A stretch of DNA of 40,873 nt from Thermoleophilia bacterium (GTDB lineage Bacteria > Actinomycetota > Thermoleophilia > Gaiellales > Gaiellaceae). Positions 29,960 through 35,780 of this stretch are shown here, one piece after another. The position numbers were made by a program, and so were the translations under genes. Within the stretch, counting starts at the first letter, position 1. The number at the start of each line of letters is the position of its first letter. The DNA is taken from positions 1 to 40,873 of the forward strand of contig SHVL01000022.1 in NCBI GenBank assembly GCA_009694305.1. The letters run 5' to 3'. Below the pieces are notes generated by a model. The model was not told the origin of the DNA, made no database searches, and worked only from the letters and a program-made list of their open reading frames with translations.

Positions 29960-31561
29960 GTGCACCTCGTTCGGCGCCTCCGTGAGCACGGCGTCGAGGT
30001 CGGGTTCGGCATCGTCGGCGACTACGCCCTCCGGCTCTTCGGTGCCCTGGAAGAAGAAGGGATGTCGATGCTCGTGACCGCCGACGAACAGGGCGCCGGA
30101 TTTGCTGCTGACGCATACGCCCGGCTGCGTGGTCTCGGGGTCGTGGGCTGCACCTTCGGCGTGGGCGGGTTGAAGCTGGTCAATGCCACGGCCAATGCCT
30201 GGGCCGAGCAGGTGCCGCTGCTGATCGTATCGGGGGCACCCGGACTGGCCGAGCAGGCCGGTGGCGCACTGCTCCACCACCGCGTGAAGGAGTTCGACAC
30301 CCAGTTCAACGTGTACAGCAACCTCACGGTGGCGCAAGCGGTGCTCGACAACCCGGTAACAGCGGCGGCGGAGATCGATCGGGTGATCACGGCAATCCTC
30401 GAACAGCAGCGGCCCGGCTATCTCGAGATCCCACGTGACCTCGTTGGCGTCACCATCGAGTCGAGTCCTGATCCCATCAGGCTCGCAGCCCAACGGGTCG
30501 ATCCGGCGAAGCTGGCTGCGGCGGTTGATGATGTCGTCGCCGCGATGCGAGCGGCGAAGTCGGCGGTGATCCTGAACGGAGTGATGGTGGCTCGCCGCTC
30601 ACTGGCTGCGCACCTCCTCGAGCTTGCCGAGCATCTGGGCCTCCCTGTGGCCACGAGTTCGATGGCAAAAGGAGTTTTTCCGGAGACGCACCCGCTGTCC
30701 CTCGGGGTCTACCAGGGTGCGGTCAGCCCCGCCGAGGTGGTTGCCGCTGTCGAGACGGCCGACGTTATTCTCAGCTTCGGAGTCCTGCCTACCGATCTCA
30801 CCTTCGGTGGGTTCACGGCCCACATCGCTCCCACTCATCTGGTTGACTGCACCGACAACGACGTCTCTGTCGGCCTGCATACCTATCGGGATGTTCCTCT
30901 CGCGGCCTTTATGCCTGCCTTGCTAGCGGCCGTTGCCGACGGGCAGGATGCGCGCTTGCCCCCCGTCCATGGCCGGCCCCGCTTCATTTCCGAAGGGCAC
31001 GTTCCGATCCACGTGGAGCGGCTCGTATCTGCCGTGGCGGCACAGATGGACGAGCGTCACGGGCTGATCGTGGACCCCGGCGACTGTCTGTTTGCGGCCG
31101 TGGAGCTTCCGGTGCCTGCCTGGGCACTCTCGAGCGCGTACTACGCGACCATGGGATACGCCGTTCCGGCGGCGCTTGGTGCGGGCAAGGCCGACCCGGG
31201 CCGCCGGCCGGTGGTGCTCGTCGGTGACGGCGCGTTCGCAATGAGCGGCCTCGAAGCCGGATGGTCGGCGTTTCACGGTGTTGTCCCGATCATCATCGTG
31301 GTGGACAACTCCGGGTACGGCACCCAGCGTCCGATGCTCGATGGCCCGTTCAACGACATTCCATCGGTGGCAGCCGAATACCTCCCCAAGCTGTTTGGCA
31401 CCGGGAAGGGTTGGCTGGCAGCGACGGAGGACGAGCTCGAATCCGTACTCGGCGAGGCCTTTGCGAGCGACCATCTCGCGATTGTCCATGTCAAGGTGCC
31501 CCGGTCGTCGATCAGTCCTGCCCTGAGCCGGCTGACCGATGCGTTGGCAAAGCGCGTGTAA
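29960..31561 (+). CDS. Thiamine-diphosphate-dependent 2-oxoacid decarboxylase (pyruvate/indolepyruvate decarboxylase-like)
   Basis: 533 residues from GTG 29960. The ThDP activating Glu43 is in ADEQGAGFAAD; the paired histidines of the decarboxylase group are at 106-107 (GGALLHHRV), and the Mg-ThDP motif runs from GDG at 422-424 to Asn450 (VVDNSGYG). The His pair favours a true decarboxylase over acetolactate synthase. Product would be an aldehyde; the zinc alcohol dehydrogenase at 5652 is too far away to claim a link. Upstream residues in frame (RETTIPVHLV) also resemble the family, and no ATG, GTG or TTG lies there, so a CTG at 29924 overlapping the previous stop cannot be excluded as the true start. 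Confidence 0.88.
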   Translation: MHLVRRLREHGVEVGFGIVGDYALRLFGALEEEGMSMLVTADEQGAGFAADAYARLRGLGVVGCTFGVGGLKLVNATANAWAEQVPLLIVSGAPGLAEQAGGALLHHRVKEFDTQFNVYSNLTVAQAVLDNPVTAAAEIDRVITAILEQQRPGYLEIPRDLVGVTIESSPDPIRLAAQRVDPAKLAAAVDDVVAAMRAAKSAVILNGVMVARRSLAAHLLELAEHLGLPVATSSMAKGVFPETHPLSLGVYQGAVSPAEVVAAVETADVILSFGVLPTDLTFGGFTAHIAPTHLVDCTDNDVSVGLHTYRDVPLAAFMPALLAAVADGQDARLPPVHGRPRFISEGHVPIHVERLVSAVAAQMDERHGLIVDPGDCLFAAVELPVPAWALSSAYYATMGYAVPAALGAGKADPGRRPVVLVGDGAFAMSGLEAGWSAFHGVVPIIIVVDNSGYGTQRPMLDGPFNDIPSVAAEYLPKLFGTGKGWLAATEDELESVLGEAFASDHLAIVHVKVPRSSISPALSRLTDALAKRV

Positions 31562-31575
31562 CTCTCGCCGCCGGG

Positions 31576-33278
31576 TCAGCCAGAGGCGCTGCCCGGTCGC
31601 TTGTCGAGGGCGACAGACCAGACGTTGATCTCGGTGGGGAACCCGCGTAACTCGACCGGGCCGGATTGGAGGCCGATTCCGAACTTGAACCCGCTGCCCC
31701 TCCCTGTTCGTGGTGCAAGGCGTTTGCTGCAGGGTTGCGGATCTCGAGGATATCGAGCGCCGCTCGTAACCCTCGGTCTGCGTGGTCTGTCTGCTCGACC
31801 GGCGCCCCGAAAACCGCCATCAGCCCGTCACCGACATAGGAGACCACCGTCCCCTGCTCTGCGAGAACGGCTGTGGCGAACTCGTCCAGGTACCGGTTCA
31901 GTACCCTCACCGTCTCAGCCGGCGGTGTGCCGTCCACATAGGTGGTGAAGCCGCGCAAATCGACGAACATCACGGTCCCGACCATCTCGACGCCCTCGAG
32001 CCAGGGTCGGCCCGACGCCTGTGCGAGCACTTCATCGACCACCGATTCCGGCACGAAGCGCGCGAACGCATCCCGCACTTGCGCTCGCTCGAACGCCTCG
32101 ATTCCGTAGTTTGCCGCGAGCACGCCGACACCCGCCAGCATTGCCGCCAGCACCGGGTAGGTGAGAGGCATGACAACACCACGGTTGAACGCAAATTGGG
32201 TGAACGCCACGTACCCCGCTGCGAGAAACAGGGTCAGCGTAAGCGCGACAACGACTCCGAACCGGAGGCCGATCAGAGCAGTGAGAAGACCAAGGCAGAC
32301 GATCAGCGATGGCGCGTCCCAGCGGGAGGCGTCTCGCAGGGGCAAGCCGCGAAGCGCTGTCGAGACCGCGTTCGCCTGGATCTCGGGGCCGGCCATCAAC
32401 TGCTCGCCCGTCGTCGCGGTGGCGCGAATATCCTGCAGCGTTGGCGCCGTAGCACCGAGAATCACGACCTTGTCGCGGAACACGGACGCCGGTACCTTTC
32501 CTTCGGTCAGGCTGCTGAACGACACCGTGGATACCGAGCCTGGCGGCCCACGGAAGTCGATCCACCCATGATCGCCAGGCACCACTCGAGCGGTGGCGCT
32601 TCTTCCTATAGCGAGGTTCGCACCGGCCACGGGAAAGGACACGAGGCCGCCGATCGACTGACGCAGATGCCGAATGACGCCGTCGCGATCCGGCACGAAC
32701 AGAGCGTTGGCCGCATGCGCGTTCGCGGAACGAACGACGTCGTCTCCGCCAAGGACGTTGGACTCACCCGAAGGCCCGGTCTCGGTCGTCGCCAGGATCA
32801 CATTGCCTGCCTCGGTCACAGCCGAGATGAGCGCATTGTCCTCGGCAGGACTGGTGGGCTCGGTGAACTGCACGTCATACGCAATCACCCGTGCCCCCGC
32901 ACGGCGAAGCTGCCGGATCGCCCGAGCATGCACCGAACGAGCAAACGGCCAGCGGACGCCGAGCCGGTTGAATGTGGCATCGTCGATCGCGACGACGACA
33001 TCGTTGCGTTCAGCCTCCGTGGCGCGAATCGCAAATCGCGTGTCGACGGTCGAGAGCTCAAATCTGTCGAGCGCCCCGGAAGCCGCTACACCCTGCGTAA
33101 CAACGCCGGGTACCGAGGTAGATTTCTTTTTCCAGACGTTCGTCAACAGTGCCCCACCTGCTCCACCTGTGCTGGCGCCAAAGCTGAGGGCGAGTGTCGT
33201 CGTGAAACCGACAACGGGAACGGTTTTCGTGCGCCGCCGCGGTTCGACCGGATTCGTTCTATTGACAGCCCGCATCAT
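31576..33278 (-). pseudogene. CHASE2-domain adenylate/guanylate cyclase, broken
   Basis: A CHASE2 sensor domain is clear (RFELSTVDTRFAIRA, VVVAIDDATFN, ARVIAYDVQF), then membrane helices (about 32090-32330), then the first half of a class III cyclase with both metal aspartates (MFVDLRGFTTY, SYVGDGLMAVFGAP). At about 31690-31710 the frame is lost in a G-rich run; the correct continuation FKFGIGLQSGPV is one frame over. There it jumps straight into VELRGFPTEINVW, which resembles the usual C-terminal tail. The segment holding IGDxVNxASR, with the catalytic Asn and Arg, is missing (perhaps 80 residues). The 5' end is also doubtful: the expected N-terminal membrane helix is not seen, and the frame there overlaps a plus-strand gene relic. 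Start 33278 is the first ATG only. Confidence 0.75.
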
Positions 33279-33722
33279 TGTCTGGAGCGGGTCGGAGCTC
33301 GACACGACGAGGGGGCAGTGAGGCTCGTGAGTGCCACGACGAGAAAGGGCATCACGCAGTTCGCGGACTTCGCCGGTGGCCGGTTCGTCGTCACCCAGTC
33401 CGGCGACGGCATCGTCAATCTGCGCCTGAGCGGCGGCGACTTCGAGGCATCCTGTCCGTCGGCCAGGGCACGAACCCTTTCGGCTGCACAGAAAAATCCT
33501 TCCCCACCAGTCCGAAAGCTGTGGGGGAACGGGAAGGGCAGGTTTCGCACGATCGGACGCTACGCCTCGGTGGCGGTGCGGGGAACGGTCTGGTTGACCG
33601 CCGACCTGTGCGACAGCACTGTCGTGACCGTACGCCGTGGACGTGTGATGGTCGTCGACATCCCCAAGCGACGCCGCGCCATCGTGACCTCGGGCCACAG
33701 TTACACCGCTGTGAAGCCCTGA
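33148..33722 (+). pseudogene. FecR-like beta domain protein, frameshifted and 5'-truncated
   Basis: Two frames join into one protein. The first (33148 to about 33310) reads SAPPAPPVLAPKL, then VVVKPTTGTVFVRRRGS and SGSELDTTRG before a TGA. The second (GTG 33318 to TAG... at 33722, 134 codons) reads VRLVSATTRKG, TQFADFAGGRFVVTQ, LWGNGKGRFRTIGRY, SVAVRGTVWLTADLCD and GHSYTAVKP. In related actinobacterial proteins the order is GTVxVxxxGSxxFVPL, VGSxxDTxxGxVRLTSA, FxVTQ, GKGRFRTxGRxSxATVRGTxWLxxDxCxxT. One missing base in the G run at 33311-33315 restores it. No start or signal peptide is visible upstream. The C-terminal part could still be translated from GTG 33318, which has GAGGGGG ahead of it. 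Confidence 0.65.
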
Positions 33723-33836
33723 AGGTTCGTACCATTTCGGGGTGCGTCCCGGCACTGAAGATGGTAGAGCCTCTCGCTGTTACTAGTGCGTGGATTTTTG
33801 GGAGACGAGAGCACGGGATCGAGAGGAGAGACCGTT

Positions 33837-34733
33837 GTGGCGACATCTCGACGACAATTCATCACCGGAGCTGCTGGACTTGGGATGGGTGCGGCTGCGG
33901 CACTGTCTTTAGCCGGCTGCACGAGGAAAGACAAGGCTGTATCTCCCTCCTCGACTGCCGGGTCTACGGTCTCCGAGGAACCGAGCATGTTCACCGCAGT
34001 CGCTACGGAAGCCGAGTTCGAGAGCTACCTGCAGCAGCACGGTCTCGCGGCCGTAGCAAGTCTGCCCTTGATCTCCGGGATCAGCTACAACGGCGGTCTG
34101 CGCTACGACGACGATCCATCAGCCCATACAGCCACGAGCTATATCAGGCAAGTCGCTGCTCGAACCGAGGACTTCGAGAAGAAGACCCAGCCGGGCACCC
34201 TTCCGATTTTCACACTGGTCGGTATCGGCACCACGACCTCCAAACAAGCCGGTGCGACCACCGATCTGTTGCTGAAGTACCTCACGGGAACGGTGGGCCT
34301 GAATCCCGACCGTCTGCGTGCCACAACCACTGATCACTCCTCGTCGTTTTTCCCGCAGCTGGCCCGGTACGGCATTACCGACAAGCAGATCACGCTGCGT
34401 CCCTGGGAGGAAGCAGTCAAGGACGGCTCTGGCTCGGGGTTCTTTGCTCCGAGCGGCCACCCCGGAAACCCGCGGACTCCCTCTTTTTCGATCGAGTACG
34501 TGCTTTCTGACGGCACAGCTCTTGAAATCGCCGAAATAACGTATGGGGACGGATCGAAGGCCACAGCAGGAGGCATAGGAGTCGAGCGAGTCTCCATGGC
34601 ACGAAACGATCAGGTGACCACCTGGGAGGCGTCGCTCCCTGCGTTCAGGACTGCGGTCAAAAAAGCGGCTGCAGCCGGCGGCGCTGCACTCCCAGCCGGC
34701 TACTTCGCTCAACTCGGGGAGAAGAAGGCTTGA
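33837..34733 (+). CDS. Tat-exported lipoprotein with an alanyl-tRNA-synthetase-like core
   Basis: 298 residues from GTG 33837, with GAGAGGAGAG six bases upstream. The N-terminus is a twin-arginine signal (SRRQFIT at 4-10) with hydrophobic core and lipobox SLAGC, Cys28 being the lipidated residue. A Ser/Thr-rich linker follows to about 50. The body resembles the class II core of AlaRS: EAEFESYLQQHG (58-69), LLKYLTGTVGLNPDRL (145-160), DHSSSFFPQLARYGI, GSGFFAPSGHPG (199-210) where AlaRS has its DTGPCGP region, FSIEYVLSDGTALEIAE (217-233) and the motif-3-like GGIGVERV (245-252). The AlaRS motif-2 arginine region is not recognisable, and there is no editing or tRNA-binding domain. Function unknown. 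Confidence 0.75.
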   Translation: MATSRRQFITGAAGLGMGAAAALSLAGCTRKDKAVSPSSTAGSTVSEEPSMFTAVATEAEFESYLQQHGLAAVASLPLISGISYNGGLRYDDDPSAHTATSYIRQVAARTEDFEKKTQPGTLPIFTLVGIGTTTSKQAGATTDLLLKYLTGTVGLNPDRLRATTTDHSSSFFPQLARYGITDKQITLRPWEEAVKDGSGSGFFAPSGHPGNPRTPSFSIEYVLSDGTALEIAEITYGDGSKATAGGIGVERVSMARNDQVTTWEASLPAFRTAVKKAAAAGGAALPAGYFAQLGEKKA

Positions 34734-35108: not shown

Positions 35109-35780
35109 ATGGTCGAGGTCGCCCACCGCAACGGGGACATCATATTCGAGTACGAGGGCGACACACTCGCCGGTGCGAATCTCGCCGGTGCGAATCTCGC
35201 TGGTGCAAACCTCATCGGGGTTGACTGCGCTCGTGCCAACCTCGCCGGTGCAAACCTCGCCGGTGCAAACCTCGCCGATGCACAACTCGCCGGTGCGATC
35301 CTCTCCCGCGCGCGCCTTCAGAGTGCGATCCTCGCGGGTGCGTACCTCTACGGTGCGTACCTCGTGGATGCAGGCCTCGCCGGTGCGAACCTCTCTCGTA
35401 CAGACCTCGCCGGTGCGAACCTCTCCGGCGCGAACCTCGCCGGCGCGAACCTCGCCGGCGCGAACCTCGCCGGCGCGATCATCTCCGGCGCGAACCTCGC
35501 CGGTGCGATCCTCGCCGGTGCGAACCTCGCCGGCGCGAACCTCTCCGGCGCGATGCTTGCCGGCGCGAACCTCGCCGGTGCGATGCTCGCCGATGCAAAC
35601 CTCTCCGAGACAAACCTCTCCGGTGCGAACGTCGCCGGCGTCTATCTCGCCGGTGCGAACATTGCCGGTGCGAACGTCGGCGGTGCAGACCTCTTGGGTG
35701 CGAACTTAGAGAGTGCGAACCTCCTGGGTGCGAACCTCACCGGTGCGAACCTCACCGGCACGGCCTTACAAACTGAGTGA
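35109..35780 (+). CDS. Pentapeptide-repeat protein
   Basis: 223 residues. After an N-terminal hairpin-like segment (VAHRNGDIIFEYEGDTL, 4-20) come about 40 consecutive pentapeptides of the type A(N/G)L(A/S)G, which fold into a right-handed quadrilateral beta helix. At DNA level the units are nearly identical 15-mers (variants of CTCGCCGGTGCGAAC), so the gene could expand or contract by slippage. The N-terminal segment matches a common free-living bacterial subgroup. Some pentapeptide proteins (Qnr, MfpA) mimic DNA and protect gyrase; there is no direct sign of that here. There is no good ribosome binding site. No signal peptide, so probably cytoplasmic. Confidence 0.9.
   Translation: MVEVAHRNGDIIFEYEGDTLAGANLAGANLAGANLIGVDCARANLAGANLAGANLADAQLAGAILSRARLQSAILAGAYLYGAYLVDAGLAGANLSRTDLAGANLSGANLAGANLAGANLAGAIISGANLAGAILAGANLAGANLSGAMLAGANLAGAMLADANLSETNLSGANVAGVYLAGANIAGANVGGADLLGANLESANLLGANLTGANLTGTALQTE

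Follow-up and report, generated by a model that had tools for sequence, protein, structure and literature searches.

The gene at 33837-34733 lies on the forward strand of a 40,873-nucleotide window, the whole stretch of DNA that was analysed, which forms contig C62 of a 2.47 Mb assembly in 98 contigs (97% complete). The gene is real and its coordinates are correct: read from the sequence, a GTG start codon at 33837 opens a frame of 298 codons whose stop ends at 34733. The third codon position is the richest in GC within the gene, the pattern expected for genes here, with a value of 0.67 at that position versus 0.76-0.84 in the neighbours; the gene is also GC-poorer overall than these. The encoded protein is laid out as a twin-arginine (Tat) signal, a lipobox, a linker and then a domain of ~250 residues (Table 1).

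Table 1. Coordinates of the gene at 33837-34733, its upstream signal and the segments compared with alanyl-tRNA synthetase (AlaRS).
Feature	Position	Strand	Basis
Shine-Dalgarno-like AGGAGA, 7 bases 5' of the GTG	33824..33829	+	Read from sequence
Gene: 298-residue precursor plus stop	33837..34733	+	Open frame and signal
Tat lipoprotein signal, MATSRRQFITGAAGLGMGAAAALSLAG followed by C	33837..33920	+	Sequence; unique pattern match; TatC and Lgt in genome
Ser/Thr-rich linker and beginning of mature domain	33921..34010	+	Sequence
AlaRS-core-like domain, precursor residues 59-283	34011..34685	+	hhalign, 208-209 columns, P 8e-5 to 1.3e-4
Candidate motif-2 arginine R109 in QVAARTEDFE, versus AlaRS QKCxRTxDxE	34161..34163	+	Profile alignment
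LKYLTGTVGLNPDRLRATTT, aligned with AlaRS WEFLTxxLGLDPDRLWxTV	34272..34331	+	Segment test p 1.6e-4, in register
Motif-3-like GGIGVER with R251; Asp of AlaRS DTGxGLER is Ala	34569..34589	+	Segment test p 1.2e-4, in register
Helix after motif 3, aligned with AlaRS TDLxxPIIxKAxELTG	34623..34679	+	hhalign; helix predicted with and without AlaRS alignment

The neighbouring genes encode a CHASE2 cyclase, a pentapeptide-repeat protein, a TPP-dependent enzyme, an amidase and an aminotransferase, none of which is a clear partner. On the reverse strand, the gene at 31512-33755 combines CHASE2 with a guanylate/adenylate cyclase domain that covers only positions 10-90 of the 183 in the Pfam model and is followed by an unrelated tail; this gene looks truncated or frameshifted. 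A short forward frame immediately upstream of our gene (33288-33722) has no Pfam match and ends in sequence that includes RGTVWLTADLCDSTVVTVRRGRVMVVD; it may be what is left of a larger surface protein, and may share a transcript with the gene at 33837-34733. The forward gene at 29960-31561 encodes a complete TPP-dependent enzyme; its relatives elsewhere in the genus, in six further genomes, are only ~30% identical. The forward gene at 35109-35780, ahead of which GC falls to 0.52-0.54, encodes a pentapeptide-repeat protein composed almost entirely of AGANL repeats.

Residues 1-28 of the precursor (MATSRRQFITGAAGLGMGAAAALSLAGC) form a twin-arginine signal that closes with a lipobox. The twin-arginine motif SRRQFI occupies residues 4-9, and the lipobox, (S)LAGC, follows a hydrophobic stretch and ends at Cys28 (33918-33920). 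A sequence-only reading of this DNA had judged the signal convincing and proposed that it be checked for Tat and lipoprotein features. That judgement is borne out: both elements are present, and a strict Tat plus lipobox pattern matched only this sequence when 21,562 start/ORF combinations were scanned over 841 kb, comprising the window and two related genomes. TatC (E 1.5e-52) and Lgt (E 2.4e-60) are encoded in the same genome, and the Tat signal model TIGR01409 scored 13.6 bits, slightly below its cut-off of 16.7. Tat-dependent lipoproteins are known in actinobacteria, and the Tat pathway carries folded proteins across the membrane. Our protein shares with these lipoproteins the SRRxFI motif, the hydrophobic stretch, the LAGC lipobox and the linker, but its cargo domain is unlike any so far described. 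From the signal, we infer that the lipoprotein is located outside the cell.

Relatives of this cargo domain were sought widely. The body of the protein matched no model in Pfam (up to E 10), NCBIfam or PHROGs, and no PDB sequence at a meaningful E-value. Protein searches of all 129 genomes of the order in our collection, 399 genomes of the class and 396 genomes of the phylum found no homologue, returning only chance-level matches. Peptide-pattern scans of 85k GTDB species gave nothing convincing, nor did a pattern scan of IMG/VR or tblastn searches of phages and plasmids. A combined profile of the protein and AlaRS, run against 90 genomes of the family together with the gene itself, recovered only AlaRS, AlaRS fragments and chance matches. 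Several weak matches were inspected by eye and rejected as relatives: L003 is a GH3-type enzyme, L004 is of the quinone-oxidoreductase type, L088-L091 are glutamate-dehydrogenase-like frames and L079 is a non-genic overlap. The protein is an orphan in the collections searched, known from one genome, and we found no report of an exported AlaRS-like lipoprotein in the literature, which was covered in part.

Such isolation might suggest a recently acquired or decaying gene, in which an AlaRS-derived fragment has become joined to an export signal, with little selection acting on it. Its absence from the relatives searched is consistent with this, as are the GC and GC3 values below those of the neighbours, the GC dip behind the gene, the truncated appearance of the adjacent cyclase gene and the distant relatives of the nearby TPP enzyme. 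Set against these points, the 298-codon frame is unbroken, its ribosome-binding site is good and its signal is complete, and the divergence is far too great for a recent fragment of any AlaRS in the collection. We therefore consider this explanation improbable. The genome also carries a complete AlaRS gene of its own, separate from this one. Misassembly, which the sequence-only reading had named as a possible source of the Tat signal on this domain, also appears unlikely, because the domain does not correspond to a segment of any AlaRS in our collection.

The order of segments in the mature domain had been said to parallel that of the AlaRS core, and this part of the proposal was supported by profile comparison. 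AlaRS-core profiles for hhalign were built from collected AlaRS loci, and those of 39-42 cores aligned co-linearly with residues 11-236 of the mature domain at P ~1e-4. The first profile, of 28 sequences, gave P 0.0084, with 2 of 600 shuffles scoring as well, and a 42-sequence profile gave P 8.2e-5 over 208 columns, placing residues 12-236 of the mature domain on positions 5-254 of the AlaRS core. Other AlaRS sets yielded P values of 1.2e-4 (twice), 1.3e-4, 0.004 and 0.017. The full-length register was recovered with all of these other sets except one of 14 sequences, and never by the reversed sequence, which scored 11-17 versus 36-37 for the protein. Among 853 segments of real genes, none scored as high as the protein (best 28.4 versus 36.1; Gumbel p 3e-5), and the longest alignment among these controls spanned 137 columns versus 209 for the protein.

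Other measures did not support the likeness. Our own AlaRS HMM returned -1.1 bits in hmmsearch with all filters off. Matches at conserved columns in a MAFFT alignment with AlaRS were no better than those of controls (98 of 300 shuffles and 263 of 700 other proteins did as well), and 17 of 71 invariant AlaRS columns were matched (24%), which is not above the overall identity of 23%. Because shuffles score equally, we set aside identity at conserved columns as a test of AlaRS ancestry. The pairwise alignment score was 40.9 versus 38.6 for the reversed sequence and, with the two nearly equal, pairwise scores were not relied on. The parallel in segment order is therefore above chance in the profile tests, but identity at conserved columns is not, and the pairwise test is ambiguous.

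These results bear on the possibility that the protein is an orphan Tat-exported lipoprotein of unrelated or new fold, whose likeness to AlaRS is a chance pick from thousands of families. As AlaRS was chosen by a reader among that many families, the P values need a large correction, and a single P of 1e-4 is insufficient: a profile P of ~1e-4 is expected by chance for the best of ~10,000 families. The lack of any relative or family match in the collections searched fits this explanation too, as do the conserved-column and reversed-pairwise controls at chance level. What carries the AlaRS claim past the correction for family choice is a test in which the protein and the AlaRS profile were each split into equal thirds and all pairs compared. 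The diagonal pairs gave p 0.056, 0.0011 and 0.00015 (~2e-6 when combined by Fisher's method, by hand), versus 0.28-0.66 off the diagonal, so that each third matches solely its own AlaRS third. The aligned length also lies beyond the range of the controls. Because the reader had been cued by the motif-3-like end, the comparison was repeated with the motif-3 region left out, and the match persists (p 9e-4). On these grounds we regard a chance resemblance as somewhat unlikely. Homology of the domain to AlaRS, at ~20-23% identity, is likely but unproven, and rests on profile statistics for a sequence without other relatives.

In the protein, as in the AlaRS core (PF01411, tRNA-synt_2c), the segments follow one another co-linearly, beginning with the first helix and running as far as the one that follows motif 3. 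The two also share the motif-2 pattern Q-x3-R-T-x-D-x-E and the motif-3 pattern GxGxER, but the protein falls below Pfam detection and carries a Tat lipoprotein signal. Judged on the defining features of its sequence, it is not a member of AlaRS. In the profile alignment, Q105-x3-R109-T-x-D112-x-E sits on AlaRS Q-K-C-x-R-T-x-D-x-E, and this supplies a candidate for the motif-2 arginine that had earlier been described as not visible. The resemblance of GGIGVERV to motif 3, also pointed out earlier, held up, with R251 on the invariant arginine. In AlaRS, the motif-2 arginine, a motif-2 phenylalanine and the motif-3 arginine hold ATP, and Asp235 (E. coli numbering) holds the alpha-amino group of alanine (PMC12143591); PMC7373986 served as a further source for residue roles. 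The ATP-side residues have counterparts in the precursor at R109, F125 and R251, where F125 corresponds to the second Phe of TFFEM, which by our own reading is the motif-2 Phe of that study. The equivalent of Asp235 is Ala244, so the alanine-holding Asp is lost; the Trp of AlaRS NFW is replaced by Phe203 and the invariant Asn of WNLVF by Glu233. The GPCGPCSE loop is not kept, and the protein ends only 47 residues past GIGVER, with the tRNA-recognition and editing domains absent.

An AlaRS-like amino-acid-binding or adenylating domain had been proposed to have moved outside the cell. That a Tat lipoprotein signal takes an AlaRS-core-like domain out of the cell is the reading with the best support; adenylating activity appears unlikely, because Ala, Phe and Glu stand in place of Asp235, the NFW Trp and the WNLVF Asn, and neither the tRNA domain nor the editing domain is present. 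The accompanying suggestion that the domain may only bind is the more likely. A working extracellular class II adenylating enzyme, passing an amino acid or other acid to an acceptor in the envelope, would draw on the counterparts of the motif-2 and motif-3 arginines and the adenine-stacking Phe and, since Tat exports folded proteins, a bound nucleotide could travel along. We nonetheless judge such an enzyme very improbable: the three AlaRS-site residues and the GPCGPCSE loop are not kept, a supply of ATP is not expected outside the cell, and no partner enzyme adjoins the gene.

Structure prediction from the single sequence gave a model too low in confidence to be of use (pLDDT 33). Helices 11-20, 88-104 and 216-232 and strands 114-116, 170-175 and 181-183 are common to this model and to one based on AlaRS, and the single-sequence helix 52-69 has no counterpart in the latter. 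The AlaRS-based model, computed from an alignment with 11 AlaRS rows, reached pLDDT 57 and pTM 0.62, with ~80 over residues 91-140, and Foldseek placed AlaRS first among its matches (E 6e-6). As the input alignment was itself AlaRS, neither this model nor its Foldseek matches are independent evidence.

Short AlaRS-like proteins of 394-412 residues (L062 of genome G516; G497:C7:2147-3307) occur beside full AlaRS in large actinobacterial-type genomes. Like the protein studied here, these have the core without the full C-terminal part, and in pairwise comparison with the mature domain L062 (394 residues) was among the highest scorers (64). Unlike our protein, L062 is a clear PF01411 match (285 bits) with no visible export signal, and keeps GPCGP, the motif-3 Asp and part of the post-core region. 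More generally, some synthetase paralogues have taken on other work; HisZ, as well as AlaX, is named in PMC7373986. Both are likewise derived from a synthetase or synthetase domain and have roles other than tRNA charging, but they have known partners or activities, unlike the protein at 33837-34733, and AlaX comes from the editing domain rather than the core. We know of no exported synthetase paralogue of this kind.

On balance we favour, by a modest degree of probability, the reading that this lipoprotein, known from one genome, is exported by Tat, derives from AlaRS and binds a ligand without being catalytic. The protein would fold in the cytoplasm and then be exported whole by Tat, after which Cys28 would be lipidated and would hold it on the outside of the cytoplasmic membrane. 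The body of the protein would be a class II synthetase core that has diverged far from its AlaRS origin and stops shortly past motif 3. To judge from its residues, it most likely neither charges tRNA nor activates alanine, and instead serves at the cell surface as a binding domain for a small ligand, nucleotide-like or otherwise; a nucleotide-like ligand is favoured only because the retained residues are those of the ATP side.

Whether the catalytic core of AlaRS has become an extracytoplasmic protein anchored in the membrane and retained at the surface to bind or sense a ligand, as a class II synthetase derivative at work outside the cell, we consider evenly poised. If the ancestry is real, a synthetase core would have left the cytoplasm, and with it tRNA, to be reused in a new location. 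This would show that a class II core can be exported in a folded state by Tat, and would raise the question of what ligand a synthetase-derived pocket might bind at the cell surface.
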